From Alphaproteobacteria bacterium (GTDB lineage Bacteria > Pseudomonadota > Alphaproteobacteria > UBA828), in NCBI GenBank assembly GCA_011523425.1, contig WTGU01000111.1:1-41234 (forward strand): a stretch of 41,234 nt of DNA, written 5' to 3'. Within the stretch, counting starts at the first letter, position 1; each line of letters opens with the position of its first letter. Below the pieces are notes generated by a model, which saw only the letters and a program-made list of their open reading frames with translations, was not told the DNA's origin and ran no database searches. The position numbers were made by a program, and so were the translations under genes. Positions 5,871-17,451 of this stretch are shown piece by piece.

Positions 5871-5964
5871 ATGCTTGACGAGCGGGCCAGGTTCTCGAAT
5901 CGTAGAACATGACACACGTGTCAGGTTCTCCCGTTGCGGGCAGGAGCGGACGGACGCCACGACC
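5871..5964 (+). promoter_or_regulatory. control region of the glycosylase-GMC-NIPSNAP operon, copy 1
   Basis: Contains CTTGACG at 5874-5880, TAGAAC at 5903-5908 and the palindrome at 5910-5923. The same words, with identical spacing (TGAC to TGAC 34 bases; TTGACG to TARAAC 22-base gap), recur at 9850-9899. The 22-base gap is too long for an ordinary sigma-70 promoter, so TTGACG may belong to a second regulator half-site instead. Confidence 0.65.
5910..5923. promoter_or_regulatory. RutR-like operator, copy 1
   Basis: TGACACACGTGTCA is a 6+2+6 inverted repeat. E. coli RutR binds TTGACCA-NN-TGGTCAA, which has the same TGAC half-site and 2-base centre. The same site stands next to the RutR-like gene at 9886-9899. 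Regulation by that protein is inferred. Confidence 0.68.
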
Positions 5965-6813
5965 ATGCGACTGAGAGCGGCGCTGCACGAGACGCTCGAC
6001 GGCTGGCACGGGGATATCGACCCTTCCTGGCGCGCTCTCGTGCACGACGTCGCGTTGGCCTTCGATGCGGTCGACGCCGCGCTCGAGCTGGAGCCGTGGG
6101 AGCCGATCTTTCCGGCCCGGCGGGGCAGGAGCCTGCCCGGAGCGCCCTTGGGCGCGCACCTGCTGCGCGCCTTCGACGGGATCGCGCCGGAGAGCGTGCG
6201 CTGCGTGATCGTGGGCCAGGACCCCTATCCGTGCCCCGCGTTTGCGACCGGGCGGGCCTTCGAGGCGGGCAACGTCGCCCGCTGGCGGGAGCTCGACAAG
6301 ATGTTCTCGCCGAGCGTCCGCGCGGTGATCCAGCTCGTCGTCGCGGAGCGCACCGGCGCGGCACGCTACGCCGAGGGCTTCGCGCAGTGGCCGGAGACGT
6401 TGGCGGCCATCGAAGCGGGCGCGGTCGATCTGGAGGCGCCGGAGGCGCTGGCCGAGCGCTGGGTCGCCTCCGGCGCGCTGCTGCTCAACAGCTCGCTCAC
6501 GCTCTCCCGCTTCCGGCGCGAGGGCGATCCACACCAGGTGCGGGGCCATCTGCCGCTCTGGCGCCCCTTGCTGGTCCGGGTGCTCGACCGACTGGCGCGG
6601 CGGGGAACGCCGGTCGTCTTCATCGGCTTCGGCGACGCGGCCGCCGAGACGCTGGCTGCGGCGGGGCTTGGAGAGGCTGAACAACGCGCAGCGGGGCGCG
6701 TCATCCTCCGCCCGCACCCCGCTGCGGCCGCCGAGATGCTGGCGCAGGAGAACCCGCTCTCGCTCTGCAACCGGCGCCTGCGGGCCATGGGCGCGGCGCC
6801 GGTGGACTGGTAG
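5965..6813 (+). CDS. uracil-DNA glycosylase-fold protein
   Basis: 282 residues. Family 1 UDG landmarks are all present: GQDPYP at 84-89 (Asp86 as water-activating acid, Tyr88 in the thymine-excluding position), an aromatic Phe99 in ATGRAFE, LLLNSSLTL at 172-180 (Asn175 as base-reading Asn), VVFIGFGDAAAETL (217-230), and PHP at 250-252 (His251). The usual minor-groove loop HPSPLS is replaced by HPAAAAEM, and GQDPYH by GQDPYP, so it is a divergent member; true DNA repair activity is not certain. ATG 5965 is used because the short copy at 9937 begins at the same residue. The ribosome site is weak. It is first in an operon with GMC oxidoreductase and NIPSNAP genes, an odd place for a repair enzyme. 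Confidence 0.85.
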   Translation: MRLRAALHETLDGWHGDIDPSWRALVHDVALAFDAVDAALELEPWEPIFPARRGRSLPGAPLGAHLLRAFDGIAPESVRCVIVGQDPYPCPAFATGRAFEAGNVARWRELDKMFSPSVRAVIQLVVAERTGAARYAEGFAQWPETLAAIEAGAVDLEAPEALAERWVASGALLLNSSLTLSRFRREGDPHQVRGHLPLWRPLLVRVLDRLARRGTPVVFIGFGDAAAETLAAAGLGEAEQRAAGRVILRPHPAAAAEMLAQENPLSLCNRRLRAMGAAPVDW

Positions 6814-6816
6814 CCG

Positions 6817-8475
6817 ATGCCCCGCGAGCGCGCCTTCGACTACGTCATCGTCGGCGCCGGCTCCGCCGGTTGCGTGCTAGCGAACCGGCTGTCGGCCGAT
6901 CCCGATTGCTCCGTTCTCCTCATCGAGGCCGGCGGCAGGGACCGCAATCCGCTCTTCCGTCTGCCCATGCTGATGGGCCGGCTGTTCCAGTCCGGCATCT
7001 ACAACTGGCGCTACCACACCGAGCCGGTGCCGAGCCTCGGCGGCCGCTCGCTCTATTGGCCGCGCGGCAAGGTGCTGGGCGGATCCTCCACCATCAACGG
7101 CATGATCTACGTGCGCGGCAATCGCCACGACTATGATCGCTGGGCGCAGCTTGGGCTCGACGGCTGGTCGTACGAAGACGTGCTGCCGGCCTTTCTCCGC
7201 TCCGAGGGCCATGTGGAGCGCAGCGGCGTTCATCACGGCACCGGGGGAGAACTCACCGTCTGCCGTGCGCGCGGCACCAATCCGCTCTTCGACGCGTTCG
7301 TCGAGGCGGGCCATCAGGCCGGCCATCCCGTCAACGACGACTTCAACGGGCCGGAGCAGCAGGGAATAGGCCGCTACGACTTCACCATCAGGCGGGGCAG
7401 GCGCTGCTCCACGTCGGCCGCCTTCCTGCATCCGATACGACATCGGCGCAATCTGTCCACCGCCACCGGGAGCCTCGTGCGCCGCGTGGTCGTCGACGGC
7501 GGCTGCGCGACGGGGGTCGAGATGGCGCGGGGCGGCGGCACGCGCACCGTCGGCGCGAGGCGCGAGGTCATCCTCTGCGCCGGCACCGTCAACTCGCCCC
7601 AGCTCCTGATGCTGTCCGGCATCGGGCCGGGCGATGCGCTGCGCCGGCACGGCATCCGGGTGGTCCACGAGCTCCCCGGCGTCGGCCGCAACCTGCAGGA
7701 CCACGTGGACTGCGTTCTCTCCTACGCGTGCACGAAGCCGGTCACCCTCTATCGCGAGCTCCGGGCCGACAGGATGATCCGTTCGGTGGCGGAGGGGATG
7801 CTGTTCGGCCGCGGCATCGCCACGACCTTTCCCTACGAGGCGGGCGCGTTCTTCAAGAGCCGGCCGGAACTGGTGGCGCCGGACATCCAGGTGCACTTCA
7901 TGCCGGCGCTGGAAAGCACGGCGAGCCTGCATGTTCCCAACCCCTTCGGTAAGGCCGCGGCCGACGCCGGCCACGGCTTCGCGCTCCGCGTGGGCCCGGT
8001 CAACCCGGCGAGCCGGGGGTGGATCGACCTGCGTTCCGCCGATCCCGCCGACGCGCCGCTGATCCAGCCCAACTATCTGCAGGACGACGCCGACTGCACG
8101 ACGACGATCGCGGGCATCCGCATGGTCCGCGATGTGATCGCACAGCCGGCCTTCGACACCTGTCGCGGCCCCGAGCTTGCGCCGGGCGATGCGCTGCAGA
8201 GCGATACCGACCTCACCGCCTGGCTCCGTGCCAACGCCATGACGACCTTTCATCCCGTCGGCACCTGCCGCATGGGCACCGACCCGATGGCGGTGGTGGA
8301 CGCCCGGCTCGCCGTCCGCGGCATCGCCGGGCTCAGGGTCGCTGACGCCTCGGTCATGCCCGTCATCACGAGCGGCAACACCAACGCGCCCGCCATCATG
8401 ATCGGCGAGAAGGCGGCCGAGTTCATACGGGGCGGGGCCGAACCTCAGGCGACAGCCAAGGAGAGCGAGGAATGA
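6817..8475 (+). CDS. GMC-family FAD-dependent oxidoreductase (choline dehydrogenase-like)
   Basis: 552 residues, the usual length for the glucose-methanol-choline family of FAD alcohol oxidoreductases. The N-terminal dinucleotide fold is YVIVGAGSAGCVLANRLS (about 9-26) with the acid at the end of strand 2 in LLIEAGG. The GMC signature WPRGKVLGGSSTING lies near residues 85-100. The active-site pair is His479 in TFHPVGTCRMG and Asn in SGNTNAPAIMI (521-523). No signal peptide or haem site is seen, so it is probably cytoplasmic and passes electrons to oxygen or a quinone-linked carrier. It starts three bases after the UDG-fold gene and overlaps the NIPSNAP gene by four bases. The substrate is an alcohol of unknown type. 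Confidence 0.94.
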   Translation: MPRERAFDYVIVGAGSAGCVLANRLSADPDCSVLLIEAGGRDRNPLFRLPMLMGRLFQSGIYNWRYHTEPVPSLGGRSLYWPRGKVLGGSSTINGMIYVRGNRHDYDRWAQLGLDGWSYEDVLPAFLRSEGHVERSGVHHGTGGELTVCRARGTNPLFDAFVEAGHQAGHPVNDDFNGPEQQGIGRYDFTIRRGRRCSTSAAFLHPIRHRRNLSTATGSLVRRVVVDGGCATGVEMARGGGTRTVGARREVILCAGTVNSPQLLMLSGIGPGDALRRHGIRVVHELPGVGRNLQDHVDCVLSYACTKPVTLYRELRADRMIRSVAEGMLFGRGIATTFPYEAGAFFKSRPELVAPDIQVHFMPALESTASLHVPNPFGKAAADAGHGFALRVGPVNPASRGWIDLRSADPADAPLIQPNYLQDDADCTTTIAGIRMVRDVIAQPAFDTCRGPELAPGDALQSDTDLTAWLRANAMTTFHPVGTCRMGTDPMAVVDARLAVRGIAGLRVADASVMPVITSGNTNAPAIMIGEKAAEFIRGGAEPQATAKESEE

Positions 8476-8798
8476 TCGTCGAGCACAGGACTTACACCTT
8501 CCGCCCCGGCACGGTGGAGGGCTGGCTGAAGAAGTACGAGGCAGAGGGGCTGCCCATCCAGGAGCGCCATCTCGGACCGCTGGTCGGCATCTACGTCTCC
8601 GAGATCGGCCGGCTGCACCGGGTCGTCCTGATCCGGGCCTACGAGAGCCTGGCGGATCGCGAGCGGCGCCGCGCCGAGATGGGCGCGGACCCCGCGTGGC
8701 AGGCGTTCATCCAGTCGGTCTGGTCCCTCGACGCGATCCAGGAGCAGGACGTGATGGTCATGAACCCCGCGCCCTGCTCGCCGCCGCTCCGCGACTGA
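8472..8798 (+). CDS. NIPSNAP family protein
   Basis: 108-residue small protein with the NIPSNAP / dimeric ferredoxin-like alpha-beta-barrel pattern: VEHRTYTFRPGTVEGWLKKYE at the start, GPLVGIYVSEIGRLHRVVLI in the middle strands, then YESLADRERRRAEMGADPAW and a closing strand before MVMNP. Family members sit in many bacterial catabolic operons, sometimes as small oxygenases or accessory proteins; no catalytic residue is certain. It overlaps the GMC gene by ATGA and ends the operon begun at 5965. Confidence 0.88.
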   Translation: MIVEHRTYTFRPGTVEGWLKKYEAEGLPIQERHLGPLVGIYVSEIGRLHRVVLIRAYESLADRERRRAEMGADPAWQAFIQSVWSLDAIQEQDVMVMNPAPCSPPLRD

Positions 8799-9100: not shown

Positions 9101-9763
9101 TCATTGCGACGATGTGGAAGGGCTGCAGCATCCATCCAGGATGACCTTGGTCATGGTCTCAGCCGCAGCGTCGAAGTCCGTCCTCGTGAGCCGTCGCCGC
9201 CCGAGCACGTCGGCGGCGAGCATCCCGAAGTCCGCGTAGAACTGGGTCGCGGACCACAGCATGATGAAGAAGTGGCGCGGGTCCACCGGCGCCATGTGTC
9301 CCCGCCTGATCCATTCTTCCACCACGTGGGCGCGCTGGTCGGTGACCGCGCGGATATGCTGGCGCTGCCGCCGCTCCAAGAACTGCGCACCACGCAGGAT
9401 CTCGTTGGCGAAGAAGCGGGATTCGGTGGCGTGGCGGCGCGAATACTCGAGCTTTGCGCGGATGTAGGCAGCGATCGCGTCGCGCGGTTCGCGCTCGGGC
9501 ACGATGTGATCGAACGCGCGATCCCACCCCTCGATCAACCGCTCGATGACGGCAGAATAGATGCTCTCCTTGGTCGGGAAGTAGTAGTAGACGTTCGTCT
9601 TCGGCAGGCCGCAAACCCGCGCTATCTCCTTGACATGGGTGCCGTGAAAGCCCTTGTCGGCGAAAAGGCCGACGGCGGCGCGTAGGATTCTTTCCTCGTT
9701 CCTGGCGCGAATGCGGGGTGTCGACGGCTCCGCCTCTGCATCAGTCCGCACGCTCTTCGTCAT
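9101..9763 (-). CDS. RutR-like TetR-family regulator
   Basis: 220 residues. The HTH lies at 43-62 (HVKEIARVCGLPKTNVYYYF then PTKESIY). The C-terminal half resembles E. coli RutR and its YcdC-type relatives: FFANEILRGA (117-126) matches the LFCMEMLAGAP helix, and APVDPRHFFIMLWSATQFYADF (158-179) matches APIDPQHLIFMIWASTQHYADF. RutR senses uracil or thymine and controls pyrimidine use; many alphaproteobacterial homologues sit beside pyrimidine or purine transport genes. An AGGGAAG ribosome site precedes ATG 9763. It is divergent from a BMP-type transporter, and operator-like palindromes stand upstream. Its ligand could be a pyrimidine or purine base; this is inference. Confidence 0.9.
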   Translation of the reverse strand: MTKSVRTDAEAEPSTPRIRARNEERILRAAVGLFADKGFHGTHVKEIARVCGLPKTNVYYYFPTKESIYSAVIERLIEGWDRAFDHIVPEREPRDAIAAYIRAKLEYSRRHATESRFFANEILRGAQFLERRQRQHIRAVTDQRAHVVEEWIRRGHMAPVDPRHFFIMLWSATQFYADFGMLAADVLGRRRLTRTDFDAAAETMTKVILDGCCSPSTSSQ

Positions 9764-9851
9764 GGTCTTCCCTCGCGTTGCACGCCAACGAGGCCTTTCT
9801 GCGGCAGCCGCAGTCTAGCCCCGCATTCAGGCTGAGGGAGCAGAAAATACT

Positions 9852-9865
9852 TGACGCACGTGTCC
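9852..9865. promoter_or_regulatory. RutR-like operator, distal site
   Basis: TGACGCACGTGTCC, an imperfect 6+2+6 inverted repeat. It starts 34 bases before the second site. In the copy near 5876 the matching site is degenerate (TGACGAGCGGGCCA). Confidence 0.6.
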
Positions 9866-9885
9866 ACTTCCAAGACCGTAAAACC

Positions 9886-9899
9886 TGACACACGTGTCC
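9886..9899. promoter_or_regulatory. RutR-like operator, proximal site
   Basis: TGACACACGTGTCC, differing in one base from the perfect palindrome at 5910-5923. It lies 123 bases upstream of the RutR-like start codon and 38 bases before the short UDG-copy start. Confidence 0.68.
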
Positions 9900-9936
9900 A
9901 GTTTCGATGCAAGCGGGAGCCTGCGGACCCTATGCG

Positions 9937-10023
9937 ATGCAACTGAGGGCGGCGCTCCGGGAGACCCGAGAGGGCTGGTGGGAGGACATCCATCCGCCCT
10001 GGCGCGACGTCATCGGCGACTGA
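9937..10023 (+). pseudogene. truncated 28-codon copy of the start of the UDG-fold gene
   Basis: Translation MQLRAALRETREGW followed by WEDIHPPWRDVIGD and a TGA. Compared with the first 28 residues of the protein at 5965 (MRLRAALHETLDGW...), 16 positions are identical, including the GW, DI and PW pairs. The upstream control region is also duplicated. The likeness ends at the stop, and the BMP binding-protein gene begins 77 bases later. It is either the remnant of a second UDG-fold gene displaced by the transporter genes or a short peptide that is now part of the leader. Confidence 0.75.
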
Positions 10024-10100
10024 ACGGTCCGCCGACGGGGGCCCGCCCACGAATGCAAGCCGGGCGCAGCGGGCGCCCGAGGGAGAGAAGGAGAAACGCC

Positions 10101-11174
10101 ATGTCGAACAAGCCGAACGCGATAGGTCCGGGCGCACCGTTCGCGCGCCTCAGCCGCCGCAGGTTCCTGGCGGCAACCGCCGGCATCTCCGCGGTCGTCG
10201 GTGCGAGTTCCGCGCTGCCCCTTGCCGCGCGCGCGGACGCGGGCCTTGTCGCCTTGGTTCACACCCAGGCGGCGGGCGACAGCGGCCCCATCGATTCCAT
10301 GATGGGCCGGCTCGATCAGCTCTCGGAGGCGCAAGCCTTCGAGACCCGAAGCATCTACGCCCAGGACCCGGCGACCTACGAGACCGTGCTGCGCACCCTC
10401 GGCGATGCGGGTGCCTCCATCGTGCTCGGGACCTTCCCGGTCATCTCCGAGGCGTTCAAGGCGGTGGCTCCGCTCTATCCCGATACCAGATGGATCCAGC
10501 TCTTCGGCGATGCCGTCGACCCGCCCATCCCCAACCTGGTGACAGTCTCCTACGACTACTATCTCGGCTGCTACCTGTCGGGCATCTTCGCCGCCCACGT
10601 CTCGCAGTCGAAGCAGATCGGCTTCATCGGCGGCATCAGCATTCCGCCGATCAACGCCGACTTCAACGCGCTCGAGGCCGGTGTCCATGCGGTCGATCCG
10701 GAGGCCTCCGTTACCGCCGCCTTCGCCGGCTCCTTCCAGGATCCGGCCAAGGGCTACGAGATCGCGAGCCAGATGTTCCTGGACGGGATCGACTACATCC
10801 AGACCGATTCCGCCGCGACCGACGGCGGCATTATCCAGGCGGCCAACGAGCGCGAGGGCGCCATGGTCAGCGCACTCGACCCGGCCCAGTACCCGCTGGG
10901 ACCCGCCTCGGTGATCGGGGTGGTCAGCCTCGACTTCGGCCAGTCGCTCCATAACGAGACCAGCGCGGCGCTCGCCGCCGACTGGCAGGGCGGGCGGCAT
11001 GTGCCGACGGGCCTCGGCAGCGGTGTCATCGACTTCCTCCGCTCGCCCCTCTATCGGGAGCAGGGGCCGGCGGCTATCGTCGCACGATCGGACGAGGCGT
11101 GGCCTGCGGTCGAAGCGGCGCGGGCGGGTATCCTCGACGGCTCGGTCGCGGTGCCGTTTGACACGGAGCTCTGA
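10101..11174 (+). CDS. BMP-family (nucleoside-type) ABC transporter substrate-binding protein
   Basis: 357 residues. The N-terminus carries a Tat-like signal SRRRFLAATAG (about 18-28) followed by a hydrophobic stretch ending near ALPLAARADA. The mature part fits the BMP/PnrA basic membrane lipoprotein family that binds purine or pyrimidine nucleosides: LVTVSYDYYLGCYLSG, IGFIGGISIPPINADFNALEAG, and a long segment with QTDSAATDGGIIQAA. GGAG at 10090-10093 precedes ATG 10101; longer upstream reading in the same frame runs through the control region and was not used. It is the first gene of a four-gene transporter operon with ATPase and two permeases, under the RutR-like operators. Confidence 0.92.
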   Translation: MSNKPNAIGPGAPFARLSRRRFLAATAGISAVVGASSALPLAARADAGLVALVHTQAAGDSGPIDSMMGRLDQLSEAQAFETRSIYAQDPATYETVLRTLGDAGASIVLGTFPVISEAFKAVAPLYPDTRWIQLFGDAVDPPIPNLVTVSYDYYLGCYLSGIFAAHVSQSKQIGFIGGISIPPINADFNALEAGVHAVDPEASVTAAFAGSFQDPAKGYEIASQMFLDGIDYIQTDSAATDGGIIQAANEREGAMVSALDPAQYPLGPASVIGVVSLDFGQSLHNETSAALAADWQGGRHVPTGLGSGVIDFLRSPLYREQGPAAIVARSDEAWPAVEAARAGILDGSVAVPFDTEL

Positions 11175-11209
11175 TCGCACGCCCGGACCAGGAGGCGCTC
11201 TCGGAACAG

Positions 11210-12790
11210 ATGACCGCCGCGGACCCGCCGGCCCTTCACTGCCGCGGGATTCGCGTCACATACGGCGAGGTGACGGCGCTCGCCGACCTCGACATCGCCT
11301 TCGCGCGCGGCGCCATCCACGCCGTGGTCGGCCAGAACGGCGCCGGGAAGACGACATTCGCCCGTGTCGCAGCCGGGCTGGTCCGCCCCGACGCGGGCTC
11401 GCTCGCCATCGACGGGCGTGCGCTACGCCTCGGCCGCGTCGCCGGCGCGCGCGCGGCTGGCGTCGAGCTTGTCCACCAGAGCTTCGCGCTGCCGCCCTCC
11501 TTCACCGTAGCGGAGGCGCTGGAATTCGGCGCTGGCGGCGGCATCGGCGTCTACAGTCGACGCCGGCTCTTGAAGCGATGTCGTGAGCGCCTCGCGGCCC
11601 TCGATCTCGATGTCGATCCTCGGCGGCGCATCCGCGACCTGCCGGTCGAGGTCCAGCAGGGGGTGGAGATCGCCCGCGCGCTGGTCACCGATGCACGACT
11701 CCTGATTCTGGACGAGCCGACGGCGGTGCTGCCGCCCGCCGGCATCGAGGCGCTGTTCGAGCGTATCCGCAGCCTCAAGCGGCACGGGGTCACGGTCATC
11801 CTGATCCTGCACAAGATCCGCGAAGTGATGGCCGTGGCCGACACCATCTCCGTTCTGCGCGGCGGCAGGCTGGTCGCGGGACCCATCCCGCGCGAGCGGG
11901 CGGACGAAGCGAGCGTCGCCGAGATGATCGTCGGCCAGGCCGCGGTGGGTCCCGTCAGCGCCGACGATACCCAGGCGCTGGTCGGGGCGGCGCCGGTTCG
12001 GGGTGTGGCCACGCATCGCGTTCCCGTCGCAGCGTCGCCCGAGGCCGGCGAGACGGTGCTCCAACTGGCGGATGTGAATACGGCGAAGGACCCGGAAGAG
12101 CCACCGCTGGATCGGGTCTCGCTGCTGGTCAGGCCGGGAGAGGTCGTCGGCGTCGCCGGGGTTCAGGGCAACAGTCAGCGGACGCTGGTGAAGGCGATCG
12201 CCGGCCTCGCTGATGTCACGGGCGGCGATATCTATCTGAACGGCCGCCGCGCGAGCCGTACCAGCGCCGCCAATCGCCGCGCGCTGGGCCTGCGAGTCAT
12301 CCCCTTCGAGCGCAACAGCGAGGGCCTCAGCCTCACCAGCGCGCTGTGGGAGAACTGGTCCGTCCGTGAGCTGCTTCAACAGCCGCTGTTCAGTTTCGTC
12401 GACCCGGCCGCGCTGCGCCGGCGCTGCGACGAGGCGCTCGAGACCTGGGGCGTGCGCTATGCGTCCGCCACCCAGAACGCCGGCGCACTCTCGGGCGGCA
12501 ACGCGCAGAAGGTGATCCTCGCGCGCGAGATCGACGACGACGCACGCCTCATCATCGCCGCCCAGCCCGCGCGCGGCCTCGATATCGGCGCCACCGCCTT
12601 CGTCTGGTCGGCGCTGCGTGAGGCGGCCGGGCGCGGCTGCGGTGTGTTGCTGATCTCGTCCGATCTGGACGAGCTGTTCGACGTCAGCCACCGCTTGGTG
12701 GTCATGCTCTCGGGCCGCATCGTCGCCGAGTTCGTCCCGCCCTATGACATCGCTGCGGTGGGCCGCGCCATGACCGGGGCGTCCACATGA
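11210..12790 (+). CDS. ABC transporter ATPase with two nucleotide-binding domains (BMP/nucleoside type)
   Basis: 526 residues with two ABC cassettes, as in the YufO / sugar-type ATPases paired with BMP proteins. NBD1 has a full Walker A (GQNGAGKTT, 41-49) and Walker B LLILDEPTAVL, but its signature is LPVEVQQGVEIARAL, weaker than the usual LSVGEQQRVEI. NBD2 has a degenerate Walker A (GVQGNSQRTL) and a good signature LSGGNAQKVILAREI; its Walker B acid region reads LIIAAQPARGLDIG. One competent and one degenerate site is normal in this group. It starts 35 bases after the binding protein and overlaps the first permease by four bases (ATGA). Confidence 0.92.
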   Translation: MTAADPPALHCRGIRVTYGEVTALADLDIAFARGAIHAVVGQNGAGKTTFARVAAGLVRPDAGSLAIDGRALRLGRVAGARAAGVELVHQSFALPPSFTVAEALEFGAGGGIGVYSRRRLLKRCRERLAALDLDVDPRRRIRDLPVEVQQGVEIARALVTDARLLILDEPTAVLPPAGIEALFERIRSLKRHGVTVILILHKIREVMAVADTISVLRGGRLVAGPIPRERADEASVAEMIVGQAAVGPVSADDTQALVGAAPVRGVATHRVPVAASPEAGETVLQLADVNTAKDPEEPPLDRVSLLVRPGEVVGVAGVQGNSQRTLVKAIAGLADVTGGDIYLNGRRASRTSAANRRALGLRVIPFERNSEGLSLTSALWENWSVRELLQQPLFSFVDPAALRRRCDEALETWGVRYASATQNAGALSGGNAQKVILAREIDDDARLIIAAQPARGLDIGATAFVWSALREAAGRGCGVLLISSDLDELFDVSHRLVVMLSGRIVAEFVPPYDIAAVGRAMTGAST

Positions 12791-13833
12791 GCGGCATCAG
12801 CATCCGCGCGGGCGCGGTCATCCGCACACTCGCCTTCATCGTGCTCGCGCTCGCTCTCTGCGGCGTCGTCTTCGAGCTGGCCGGCTACTCGGCGCTTCTG
12901 ATGCTCGAAAGCGTCGTCGAGGGCGCCTTCCTGCGCGCGGGCGGCTGGGCGCAGAGCCTGCGCTGGGCCCTGCCGCTCTTCATCACCGCGACCGGTGTCG
13001 CCATCTCGTTCCGCTGCGGCTTCTTCAATATCGGCGCGCAGGGCCAGTTCTATGTGGGCGCCATCTGCGCTGCCTTCGTCGCCGATGTGCTCGGTGGTGC
13101 GCCTGCGGCCCTCGTGCTGCCGGCGACCTTCCTCGCCGGCATGGCAGGTGGCGCGCTGTGGGCGCTCTGGCCGGGATATCTCAGGCTTCGCTCCGGCACC
13201 GACGAGGTCATCACGACGCTGATGGGCAACTTCATCGCAGCCCTCGTGCTGGTCTACGTCACCTCGGGCCCGCTCAAGGACCCCTCCGGCACCGGCCAGC
13301 AGGCGGCGAGCCCGCTGCTGCCGGCGGTCTACCGCATCAGCGATTCCCAGGGCATCTCGCCTGCGATCATCGGCATCGCCGCCGCCGTCGCGCTCGCCAT
13401 GTGGGTGCTGGTCAACCGCACGCCCTTCGGCATGCTGGCGAGCCTCGCCGGGCGCAACCCGACCATGGTGCGCTTTCAGGGGGCGCGCCTCTGGACCCTG
13501 GGTCTTTCGAGCTTCCTCATCAGCGGGGGCCTCGCCGGGCTCGCCGGCACCATCGAGCTGCTCGGCCCGACCGGGCGCATCGCGAGCGGCTTCCTGCCCG
13601 GCCACGGCTTCACCGCGGTGCTGATCGCGCTGGTCGCGAACCTCTCGGTCGTGGCGACTGCCGTGGTCAGCATGCTCTTCGGCGGCCTTGCCTCGGCCGC
13701 GCTCTACCTGCCGATCCTGGCCGGGTTGCCGGCCGCTGCCATCGACATCTTCAACGCCTCCGTCGCGCTCTTCATCACCGCGAAGTCGGGATTGCTGGAT
13801 CGCCTCCTGCGCGCAGCGAGGCTCCCCACATGA
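12787..13833 (+). CDS. BMP-type ABC transporter permease 1 (YufP-like)
   Basis: 348 residues, about nine or ten membrane segments. The hallmark of this permease group, CGFFNIGAQGQFYVGAI, lies near residues 77-93. TDEVITTLMGNFIA (about 138-151) and a NRTPFGMLASLAGRNPTMVRF segment form the cytoplasmic coupling region. It forms the inner-membrane channel with the second permease. Start and stop both overlap neighbours by ATGA, so stoichiometry is probably held by coupled translation. Confidence 0.92.
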   Translation: MSGISIRAGAVIRTLAFIVLALALCGVVFELAGYSALLMLESVVEGAFLRAGGWAQSLRWALPLFITATGVAISFRCGFFNIGAQGQFYVGAICAAFVADVLGGAPAALVLPATFLAGMAGGALWALWPGYLRLRSGTDEVITTLMGNFIAALVLVYVTSGPLKDPSGTGQQAASPLLPAVYRISDSQGISPAIIGIAAAVALAMWVLVNRTPFGMLASLAGRNPTMVRFQGARLWTLGLSSFLISGGLAGLAGTIELLGPTGRIASGFLPGHGFTAVLIALVANLSVVATAVVSMLFGGLASAALYLPILAGLPAAAIDIFNASVALFITAKSGLLDRLLRAARLPT

Positions 13834-14732
13834 CCGAATTCCACGAGTTCATGGTGGCGATCCTGCGCTCCGGCACGCCGCTGGTTTACGTCACCATGGC
13901 GGGCGTCATCGCCCAGCGCGCCGGCGTCTGGCACCTCGGCCTCGAAGGCGTGATGATCATCGGCGCCTGCGCCACGATCCTCGGCATCGTCCTCACCGGC
14001 TCGTTTCCGGCCGCCATCGCCATTGCCTGCCTGCTCTGCGTCGCCGCTTCGGTCCTGCTCTGGTTCGTGATCGAGAAGCTCGGCGCCAACCCCATCATCG
14101 CGGGCTTGGGCCTCACGGGGCTCGGGATCGGCGGGACGGCGCTCGCCGTCCAGGCCATTTTCGGCAGCCTGGCGGCCGTGACCGCGCCCTTCGGCGTGCC
14201 CCGGCTCGGCGCGGCCTTCGGCCCCTACGGCGCGCTCTCCATCTTCGTCCTGATGATGCCCTTCGTCGTCTGGGGCATGTGGGTGCTGCTGCGCCGTACC
14301 CGCTTCGGCCTGCGCCTCGCCGCTGCCGGGGAGCATCCGCTCGCGGCGCGGAGCGTCGGCACCAGCCCCGCCAATGCACGGCTGATCGCGCTTGCGGCAG
14401 GCGGCGTCCTCTGCGCCATCGGCGGCGCCGAGCTCGCGGCCGGCGGCCTCACCATCTTCGCGCAGAACATGACCGCAGGGCGCGGCTTCATGAGCTTCGC
14501 CGCCGTCATCTTCGGCGCGGCGCATCCCGTCGGGGCTGCCTTCGCCGCACTGTTCTTCAGCCTCGTGGGCGTCGCGGGAATCAGGCTTCAGCTTCTCTTC
14601 GGGGCGAGCATCCCGCATGACGTGCTGCTCTCGCTGCCCTACATGGCGACGATCCTCGGCGTCTGGATCAGCGGGCGGATGCGCGGCGGCGCCAAGGCCG
14701 CCACCGAAGCCTCGGAACTCCGCGATTACTAG
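13830..14732 (+). CDS. BMP-type ABC transporter permease 2 (YufQ-like)
   Basis: 300 residues and about eight membrane segments. GVWHLGLEGVMIIGACA (about 29-45) is the family motif equivalent to NIGLEGMM. A later RTRFGLRLAAAGEHPLAARSVG segment is the ATPase-contact region. ATG 13830 is used because it overlaps the stop of permease 1 by ATGA; the frame is open further upstream to 13158 but that is only a shadow of permease 1. Last gene of the transporter operon; its TAG is followed directly by dispersed repeat copy B. Confidence 0.92.
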   Translation: MTEFHEFMVAILRSGTPLVYVTMAGVIAQRAGVWHLGLEGVMIIGACATILGIVLTGSFPAAIAIACLLCVAASVLLWFVIEKLGANPIIAGLGLTGLGIGGTALAVQAIFGSLAAVTAPFGVPRLGAAFGPYGALSIFVLMMPFVVWGMWVLLRRTRFGLRLAAAGEHPLAARSVGTSPANARLIALAAGGVLCAIGGAELAAGGLTIFAQNMTAGRGFMSFAAVIFGAAHPVGAAFAALFFSLVGVAGIRLQLLFGASIPHDVLLSLPYMATILGVWISGRMRGGAKAATEASELRDY

Positions 14733-15537: not shown

Positions 15538-17295
15538 TCATCGCACCCTGTCAATCGACAGCTCCACGCGGACGGTCACGATATCCGTGTCGTGGTACTG
15601 CTGATGGCGGACCGACGAGGCCAGGTGACGCAGCAGCCGTAGCGAGACCTCCCGCTCGATCATCGCGCCGGCGCTGGCCTCGCCCAGCAGCGCGAGCCGG
15701 TCCTGAATGTTCTCCTCGCCTTTCGAGGCGACGAACTCCAGCACCGCGCCGCCGTCCTCGCTGCGCGCCGTGAGGAGCAGCCGCCGCCGCTCCGTGTCCG
15801 CACCGGGCTCGTCCTGTCTCTGGAGCGTCAGCAGCGTCTCTTCGCAGACGGCATCGAGGCGGTCCACCATCTGCGCATCCCAGCCTCTTCGCGACGCGAA
15901 CGCGTCGATGAACGCCCGGATCTCGTGCAGGGCGGAGGGATCGAACGCCACCTCCAGCCGGCGGCGGCGCGGCTTCGTCAGCTCGACGAACATGGTCATG
16001 ACGATCGCCGCGATGCCTCCGGTCAGCATCCCGTTCTTCAGGAAGCCGCCCGCGAACGCCGTGACATGCTCGGGAAAGATCGCCTCGCTCTGAAAGCCCA
16101 CGCCGATCCAGAACGCGACCCCGGCGATCAGGCCTTTGCGGTAGTCGATCCCGTCCTGAATGATCACCCTCATGCCGATGATGAAGATCGTCGCCATCGT
16201 GACGCCGACGAACGCCGTGATGACCGGCCCTGGTATCGCAAGGATCACGGCAAGCGCCTTGGGCACGAATGCCAGCACGATGAACGCCGCTCCGAGCGCG
16301 ATGCCGATGCGGCGGGAGCTGATCCCGGTAATCTCGACCATGGACGCGCCCGTCGGCCGGAAGCCGAGCGGCATCGTGCCCGCGAGGCCCGACAGCAGGT
16401 TGCCCGCCCCGTCAGCTGCCACGGCGCCCTGCACCGCCCGGAAGTCCACGGCCCGGCTCTCGGCCCACGAGACGCGCTGGATCGCAACGGCGCCGCTGAT
16501 GGTTTGAATCGTGCAGACCAGGGCGATGAACACGAAGGCGGGCAGCAGCGCCCAGAAGTCGGGCTCGAAGCGTAGGTCCAGGGCCGACCACTCGGGCGTC
16601 GGAATGCCGATCCACGACGCCTGGACGATGCGGTCGACGTCGTAGAGGCCGAACACGCCCGCGACGAACGAGCCCGCGACGATTCCGATGATCGGCGCCC
16701 AGAGGCGCACCCGTCCCTTTGCCGTCAGCGTGACCCCGACGATGACGACCAGCGTCGCCGCTGCGCTGAGCGGGGCGGCTAGAGGCGGCGTGCCGCTCGG
16801 CACGTTCTTCAACTGGTCGAACATGACCGGCATGATCGTCACCGGAGTCAGCATGAGAACCGTCCCGGTGACGGTCGGCGTCAGGATGCGGCGGAACAGA
16901 GAGAGGCGCGCGGAGAAGACGAACTGGACCAGGGCGAGGGTAACGACCAGGGTCGCGAGCAACGCCGGGCCGCCGGCGGAGAGGGCGGCGATGCTGACCG
17001 CGATGGATGCCCCGGACGTTCCGATCGCGAGGATGTAGCCGGCGCCGAAGCGGCCGATGCGCCGCGCCTGGAGAATCGCGGTCACGCCGCAGAGCGCGAC
17101 GGAGGCGAACACGGCCCACAGCAGGACGTCCTCCGGCTGGCCGGCCGCCCTGAACACGACCGTCGGAATCATCACCGCACCCGGCAGGACCAGGCAGGCG
17201 ATCTGCAAGGCGAGGCCCACACTGAGCGGGACCGGGATCTTCGCGTCGGGATGACGGCGGCTTCCGGAGCGCCGGTTGGACTCGTCGAGTCCCAT
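15538..17295 (-). CDS. NCS2 (xanthine/uracil-type) permease with C-terminal HATPase-like domain
   Basis: 585 residues from ATG 17295. Residues about 20-435 are a nucleobase:cation symporter-2 fold with some 12-14 hydrophobic segments; MPLGFRPTGASMVEITGISSR matches the conserved region that follows the NCS2 substrate loop. Residues 451-585 are soluble and look like an RsbW/SpoIIAB-type HATPase: a helix with DRLDAVCEETLLTL, strands RRRLLLTAR and GAVLEFVA, then an ending REVSLRLLRHLASSV and IVTVRVEL. The N-box Asn is not present (ETLLTL), so ATP binding may be lost. Starts at GTG 17400 or TTG 17427 are possible and would add 35 or 44 residues; 17295 has a GGGGA ribosome site. Plain NCS2 proteins are about 430-480 residues, so this is a fusion. 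Confidence 0.8.
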   Translation of the reverse strand: MGLDESNRRSGSRRHPDAKIPVPLSVGLALQIACLVLPGAVMIPTVVFRAAGQPEDVLLWAVFASVALCGVTAILQARRIGRFGAGYILAIGTSGASIAVSIAALSAGGPALLATLVVTLALVQFVFSARLSLFRRILTPTVTGTVLMLTPVTIMPVMFDQLKNVPSGTPPLAAPLSAAATLVVIVGVTLTAKGRVRLWAPIIGIVAGSFVAGVFGLYDVDRIVQASWIGIPTPEWSALDLRFEPDFWALLPAFVFIALVCTIQTISGAVAIQRVSWAESRAVDFRAVQGAVAADGAGNLLSGLAGTMPLGFRPTGASMVEITGISSRRIGIALGAAFIVLAFVPKALAVILAIPGPVITAFVGVTMATIFIIGMRVIIQDGIDYRKGLIAGVAFWIGVGFQSEAIFPEHVTAFAGGFLKNGMLTGGIAAIVMTMFVELTKPRRRRLEVAFDPSALHEIRAFIDAFASRRGWDAQMVDRLDAVCEETLLTLQRQDEPGADTERRRLLLTARSEDGGAVLEFVASKGEENIQDRLALLGEASAGAMIEREVSLRLLRHLASSVRHQQYHDTDIVTVRVELSIDRVR

Positions 17296-17451
17296 GTCCT
17301 GATCCCCGTTGCCTGCGGAGAGCGCGGCGACGACGGCTTCGCCGATGCGTCGGGCGACCTCGACGGGCAGAACGCTGCTTTTCGAGGGATCCTCGCGCAC
17401 GCGTTCGCCGCTCCCATTCAACGGCAAACGCGCGGGCCGCGCAAAGAAGCG

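Follow-up and report, generated by a model that had tools for sequence, protein, structure and literature searches.

An operon conserved across two classes of Pseudomonadota joins a gene of the uracil-DNA glycosylase (UDG) fold to genes for a GMC oxidoreductase, a NIPSNAP family protein and a BMP/PnrA-type ABC importer. One copy lies in the window, as we call the whole 41,234-nucleotide stretch of alphaproteobacterial DNA analysed here (Table 1). Judging from sequence, the balance tips slightly towards the UDG-fold protein encoded at 5965 being an N-glycosidase that has shifted from DNA repair to catabolism, within an operon for the import and breakdown of a pyrimidine nucleoside. The further proposal, that the family has left DNA altogether and serves, with an oxidoreductase partner, as a free-nucleoside N-glycosidase in a conserved nucleoside-catabolic operon, is to us an even call. 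We know of no UDG-superfamily member with a free-nucleoside catabolic role, and a literature search for one found none. Literature searches likewise found neither a description of a UDG–GMC–NIPSNAP–BMP operon nor a paper joining NIPSNAP, GMC and UDG or nucleoside operons, in keeping with the initial annotation, which was aware of no described system of this make-up.

Table 1. Features of the UDG–GMC–NIPSNAP–BMP operon and its putative control sites in the window
Feature	Positions	Strand	Remarks
RutR-type operator-like pair	5875–5924		TTGACGAGCGGGCCAG at 5875, ATGACACACGTGTCAG at 5909; upstream of UDG
UDG-fold protein, divergent family-1-like	5965–6813	+	282 aa; catalytic residues kept, Leu wedge lost, putative lid insert WRELDKMF
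GMC (choline-dehydrogenase-like) FAD oxidoreductase	6817–8475	+	GMC_N 185.6 bits, GMC_C 130.7 bits (Pfam)
NIPSNAP family protein	8472–8798	+	100.7 bits; overlaps GMC stop codon
RutR-like TetR regulator	9101–9763	-	Profile match; 35% identical to E. coli RutR
Second operator-like pair, before importer genes	9851–9900		Sites at 9851 and 9885
Second UDG gene remnant	9937–10023	+	28 codons in frame, then stop
BMP/PnrA-like solute-binding protein	10095–11174	+	PF02608, 120.8 bits; best PDB match BmpA
ABC transporter ATPase, double domain	11210–12790	+	
ABC permease 1	12787–13833	+	126.7 bits
ABC permease 2	13830–14732	+	Synteny and identity

The initial annotation had placed the UDG gene at the head of a short catabolic-looking operon; the coordinates of the UDG, GMC and NIPSNAP genes hold, and their order is conserved in relatives. 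In the window, 3 bp separate the UDG and GMC genes, and the regulator gene sits between the NIPSNAP gene and the importer genes. The importer comprises four genes (10095–14732), with a Bmp domain well above its Pfam cutoff of 24.1 bits and two BPD_transp_2 permeases, as in BMP/PnrA-type importers. The alignment of its BMP protein with nucleoside-binding relatives starts at about residue 92 and leaves out the N-terminal part of the pocket, including the base-stacking part. The window operon contains no nucleoside hydrolase or aminohydrolase gene. Just past the operon, on the opposite strand (15538–17427, -), is a gene for an NCS2 permease of the xanthine/uracil type (pbuX, 164.8 bits), extended at its C-terminus by a long additional part that looks like a regulatory ATPase-like domain.

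The uninterrupted open reading frame at 5965 encodes a protein whose homology to UDGs is, by sequence comparison, real if weak in profile libraries. It scores 17.6 bits against the Pfam UDG model (PF03167; cutoff 24.3) and at most 63 bits against the NCBIfam Ung equivalogs (cutoffs 143–237); as a single sequence it matches Ung sequences in the PDB at E 8e-11, and the profile of its homologues matches solved Ung sequences at E 5e-19. The structure prediction and comparison with Ung proposed in the initial annotation were run: the AlphaFold2 model (pLDDT 86, pTM 0.88), predicted to have the UDG alpha/beta fold of family 1, matches solved Ung with a Foldseek E of 1e-7 and a VIA Z of 17.6 (rmsd 3.2 over about 207 residues). 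The protein is a divergent family 1 UDG fold.

Nine residues, Q85, D86, P87, Y88, P89, F99, N175, H251 and P252, are invariant among 40 family members, so that the GQDPY motif and the catalytic Asp, Asn and His reported for this protein extend to all 40 homologues. We take D86 to be the catalytic Asp, Y88 the Tyr gate, F99 the stacking Phe, N175 the uracil-reading Asn and H251 the active-site His. With the catalytic and uracil-reading residues retained, the protein should still recognise a uracil-like base and cut a glycosidic bond, and retention of the Tyr gate points to a base lacking a 5-methyl group. Five further invariant residues, R182, F183, H190, Q191 and H195, have no explained role.

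What has changed lies around this pocket. None of the 40 family members has the HPSPLS motif 2 with its intercalating Leu, or even HPSPL, though His-Pro is kept; in the profile alignment the loop is two residues shorter, and the wedge Leu is among those deleted. The positions of Ser189, Ser192 and Ser166 are mostly occupied by Ala, Asp and Asp, the phosphate-binding Ser of Ung being replaced in the profile alignment by Ala or acidic residues, and 32 of 40 members have Gly-Asp for the Gly-Ser loop. From the stacking Phe to a conserved Ser there are 18 steps, against 11 in Ung, owing to seven residues inserted at the mouth of the pocket, ahead of the 4-Pro-loop Ser; within this insert W107, E109, L110, K112, M113 and F114 are invariant across the 40. 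The model is least certain near this insert (blocks 91–110 at pLDDT 51–61), and a conserved mobile stretch beside the pocket mouth suggests a lid. Family proteins are also acidic (mean net charge -8.5, mean pI 5.4), whereas eight canonical alphaproteobacterial Ungs, a small comparison set, range from -2 to +4 in charge and from 6.6 to 9.2 in pI; acidic pI by itself does not exclude DNA binding.

The initial annotation had read altered function in two other motifs, GQDPYP and HPAAAAEM, both of which are present as it described. GQDPYP is found as well in the active M. tuberculosis Ung (2zhx), and many phage UDGs combine it with a full HPSPLS; HPA, cited as altered DNA reading, recurs in the window genome's own family-4-like UDG, which reads FHPAYLLRSP. 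We rejected both as signs of a protein acting off DNA. The lost Leu wedge, the Ser-to-Asp change in the Gly-Ser loop, the acidity and the conserved insert, none of which the initial annotation mentioned, are better signs.

Among solved enzymes, the family 1 Ungs (E. coli, M. tuberculosis 2zhx/4wpl and human) share with the 5965 protein the fold, the GQDPY motif with its Asp and Tyr, the stacking Phe and the active-site Asn and His, at 18–28% identity in structural alignment. Unlike them, it has no HPSPLS Leu loop, Gly-Asp in place of the Gly-Ser loop, a seven-residue insert, about 55 extra residues, an acidic composition and a place in a metabolic operon. The UNG of Nitratifractor salsuginis (5x3g), alignable over residues 63–230, resembles it in having GQDPYP and a longer Phe-to-Asn stretch; unlike the operon-encoded protein, it was solved as a stand-alone enzyme. 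It has been described as an unconventional family 1 UDG (FEBS J 2017).

Several lines of evidence support the operon as a unit. First, a scan of bacterial genomes returned 41 UDG relatives at 55–91% identity, in Rhizobiales, Rhodobacterales, Variovorax and some metagenome-assembled genomes. In 38 of these 41 UDG-found loci the GMC gene adjoins the UDG gene, at a median gap of 3 bp and with overlap in 16 of 37. The initial annotation had named the absence of a conserved GMC/NIPSNAP/BMP neighbourhood as what would speak against its reading; the opposite was found, the BMP gene also lying on the examined stretch in 35 of the 41. The four-part operon is kept in both classes of Pseudomonadota at UDG identities of 55–76%. 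The order in relatives is UDG–GMC–NIPSNAP–BMP–ABC–permease–permease, with the regulator divergent and adjoining UDG. Downstream follow, in varying combinations, genes for a VOC protein, a RihA-like nucleoside hydrolase and a TrzA-type aminohydrolase; the closest solved relative of the hydrolase in the S. meliloti operon is a RihA-like pyrimidine nucleoside hydrolase. One Paracoccaceae locus (L047) has a RutR-like gene, operators and UDG with no GMC, NIPSNAP or BMP gene beside them.

Second, in a sample chosen independently of UDG, 297 Hyphomicrobiales genomes searched with the BMP protein, 12 genomes carried the BMP protein and 11 of these the ordered UDG–GMC–NIPSNAP trio. A search of the same 297 genomes with UDG returned exactly those 11, all carrying the BMP operon, a co-occurrence with a hypergeometric probability of 4e-19 if the two were independent and shared ancestry is ignored. 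The closest GMC homologues (60–71% identity) are in the same 11 genomes, and those elsewhere reach at most 57%; the surroundings of sister GMC genes that have no UDG beside them were checked and gave no hint of a substrate. In the single exception (L183), the whole trio is absent and the regulator and importer are retained. In a class-wide sample of 385 genomes the sole true member is the window genome, the other eight matches being ordinary Ung, so the family is patchy.

Third, the operon is associated with RutR-type control sites. The nucleobase-type regulator of the initial annotation proved to be a RutR-like TetR protein, which scores 174 bits against the NCBIfam RutR model, under its cutoff of 368. 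In relatives, [CT]TGAC-N6-GTCA[AG] sites occur in 35 of 37 stretches between regulator and UDG. They total 62, where shuffled sequence yields 0.015, and the 580 kb of flanking DNA contains 6; 24 pairs of sites are spaced exactly 34 bp apart. The two sites upstream of UDG in the window, and likewise the two before the importer genes, keep this 34-bp spacing; they are degenerate copies of the TTGAC-N6-GTCAA-type operator, the strict pattern of the relatives having no match in the window. The E. coli rut operon offers the closest regulatory parallel, with RutR and similar TTGAC...GTCAA-type operators; unlike it, the window operon has no RutA–F genes and a different transporter and enzymes. The second operator pair in the window is followed, upstream of the BMP gene, by a UDG remnant whose DNA is 70% identical to that surrounding the start of UDG. 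With this remnant and the second pair, the window operon looks like two copies joined by deletion after a duplication. Sister genomes carry two full-length UDG copies; in one (L013) the two genes lie head to head with a RutR-like gene near each.

In the phylogeny, the operon UDGs group as a single clade, split off by one branch in every bootstrap tree. A long stem (support 100/98, 1.8 changes per site) sets this clade and two plasmid proteins off from the canonical and viral UDGs. The presence of the complete operon in Variovorax, a betaproteobacterium, implies that it moved between lineages as one unit. A phage or plasmid origin was rejected: viral UDGs are at most 30% identical and outside the clade, and the nearest outsiders are three plasmid proteins on long branches of unsure placement. 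On a Variovorax plasmid (L055, 10001–10852), a UDG relative annotated as hypothetical (35% identical) adjoins genes for an amidohydrolase and a cytochrome P460 protein, and on an Azospirillum plasmid (L056, 10001–10570), a UDG-like stretch that carries no annotation (residues 3–194, 34% identical) lies near genes for a GMC oxidoreductase and a gluconate 2-dehydrogenase subunit 3.

The scheme that we infer, as to substrates, order of reactions, regulator ligand and lack of DNA activity alike, would run as follows. The BMP-type ABC importer would bring in a pyrimidine nucleoside, probably of uracil type; it may be a poor substrate for RihA-like hydrolases, for instance a 2'-deoxynucleoside or one with a modified sugar. 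The UDG-fold enzyme would hydrolyse its N-glycosidic bond by means of Asp86 and His251, with Asn175, Phe99 and Tyr88 reading the base. The GMC enzyme may oxidise a hydroxyl group on either the substrate or the sugar that is set free, before or after base release, although its acting on an alcohol or sugar product is a guess. The NIPSNAP, VOC, aminohydrolase and RihA-like proteins would supply accessory or parallel steps, and the RutR-like repressor would turn the operon on upon binding a pyrimidine-like ligand. The pyrimidine theme comes from the RutR-like regulator, the BmpA-like binding protein, the RihA-like hydrolase and the uracil-type pocket; it thus draws partly on relatives, since the window itself lacks the hydrolase and aminohydrolase genes. 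BmpA is reported to bind thymidine (PMC13325309).

A RihA-type hydrolase performs the reaction expected of the 5965 protein, release of a base from a free nucleoside, and is often encoded in the same operon among relatives; it is a separate protein, of a fold and mechanism unrelated to UDG. A second glycosidase beside it would need a distinct substrate. The proposal of the initial annotation, that the fold was recruited to act on a free nucleoside, gains from the conserved operon, the operators and the relatives' hydrolase and aminohydrolase genes, which back a role in nucleoside catabolism, and loses the motif changes it cited, which are not diagnostic. Against the catabolic reading stand the catalytic and uracil-reading residues, which are those of the DNA enzyme, the HPA-type loops of family-4-like UDGs, and the L047 UDG and regulator without adjoining GMC, NIPSNAP or BMP genes.

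The first two of these points also serve its chief rival, which we hold to be unlikely: a DNA-acting UDG co-expressed with a nucleoside importer would clear uracil or an analogue misincorporated upon nucleoside uptake. Every family 1 catalytic residue is kept, the fold matches Ung–DNA complexes at a Z of about 17, and neither GQDPYP, present in active Ung, nor an HPA loop is foreign to UDGs. A DNA-sanitising enzyme of this kind would, however, have to work with its Leu wedge deleted, an Asp in place of the Gly-Ser-loop Ser and an acidic overall composition, and its gene is tightly coupled to an oxidoreductase rather than to DNA genes. Each genome checked encodes two or more further UDGs (three in the window genome, family 4-, 5- and 2-like judged by motifs), so housekeeping repair need not rely on the 5965 gene.

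Quite unlikely, in our estimate, is that the fold now serves other chemistry or binding only, on a non-nucleoside heterocycle or in a substrate-handling complex with the GMC and NIPSNAP proteins. The conserved putative lid, the five invariant residues of unexplained role, the long and well-supported stem and the joint loss of the trio in L183 are consistent with such a change, whereas full retention of the Asp, Asn, His and Phe favours base hydrolysis. An anti-phage DNA glycosylase akin to Brig1 is very improbable. Enzymes of the UDG superfamily can become specialised for modified bases of phages (PMC11078745), and Brig1, like the protein proposed here, has a UDG-superfamily fold turned to a task other than uracil repair, but it is closest to family 4, acts on phage DNA and belongs to no metabolic operon, whereas the 5965 gene belongs to one, with an importer and operators of RutR type. 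No defence genes were seen adjoining UDG, and PADLOC, in a 2023 library older than Brig1, gave no match.

For the catabolic N-glycosidase, the consequences extend beyond the window. Family proteins carry a uracil-DNA glycosylase annotation in public genomes, S. meliloti included, which would mislead if free nucleosides are the true substrate. The operon is present in culturable, genetically tractable rhizobia and in Variovorax, and is thus directly testable. If the reading is right, these bacteria would have an undescribed route of pyrimidine nucleoside degradation with an oxidative step, and a DNA-repair fold would have crossed into carbon and nitrogen metabolism.
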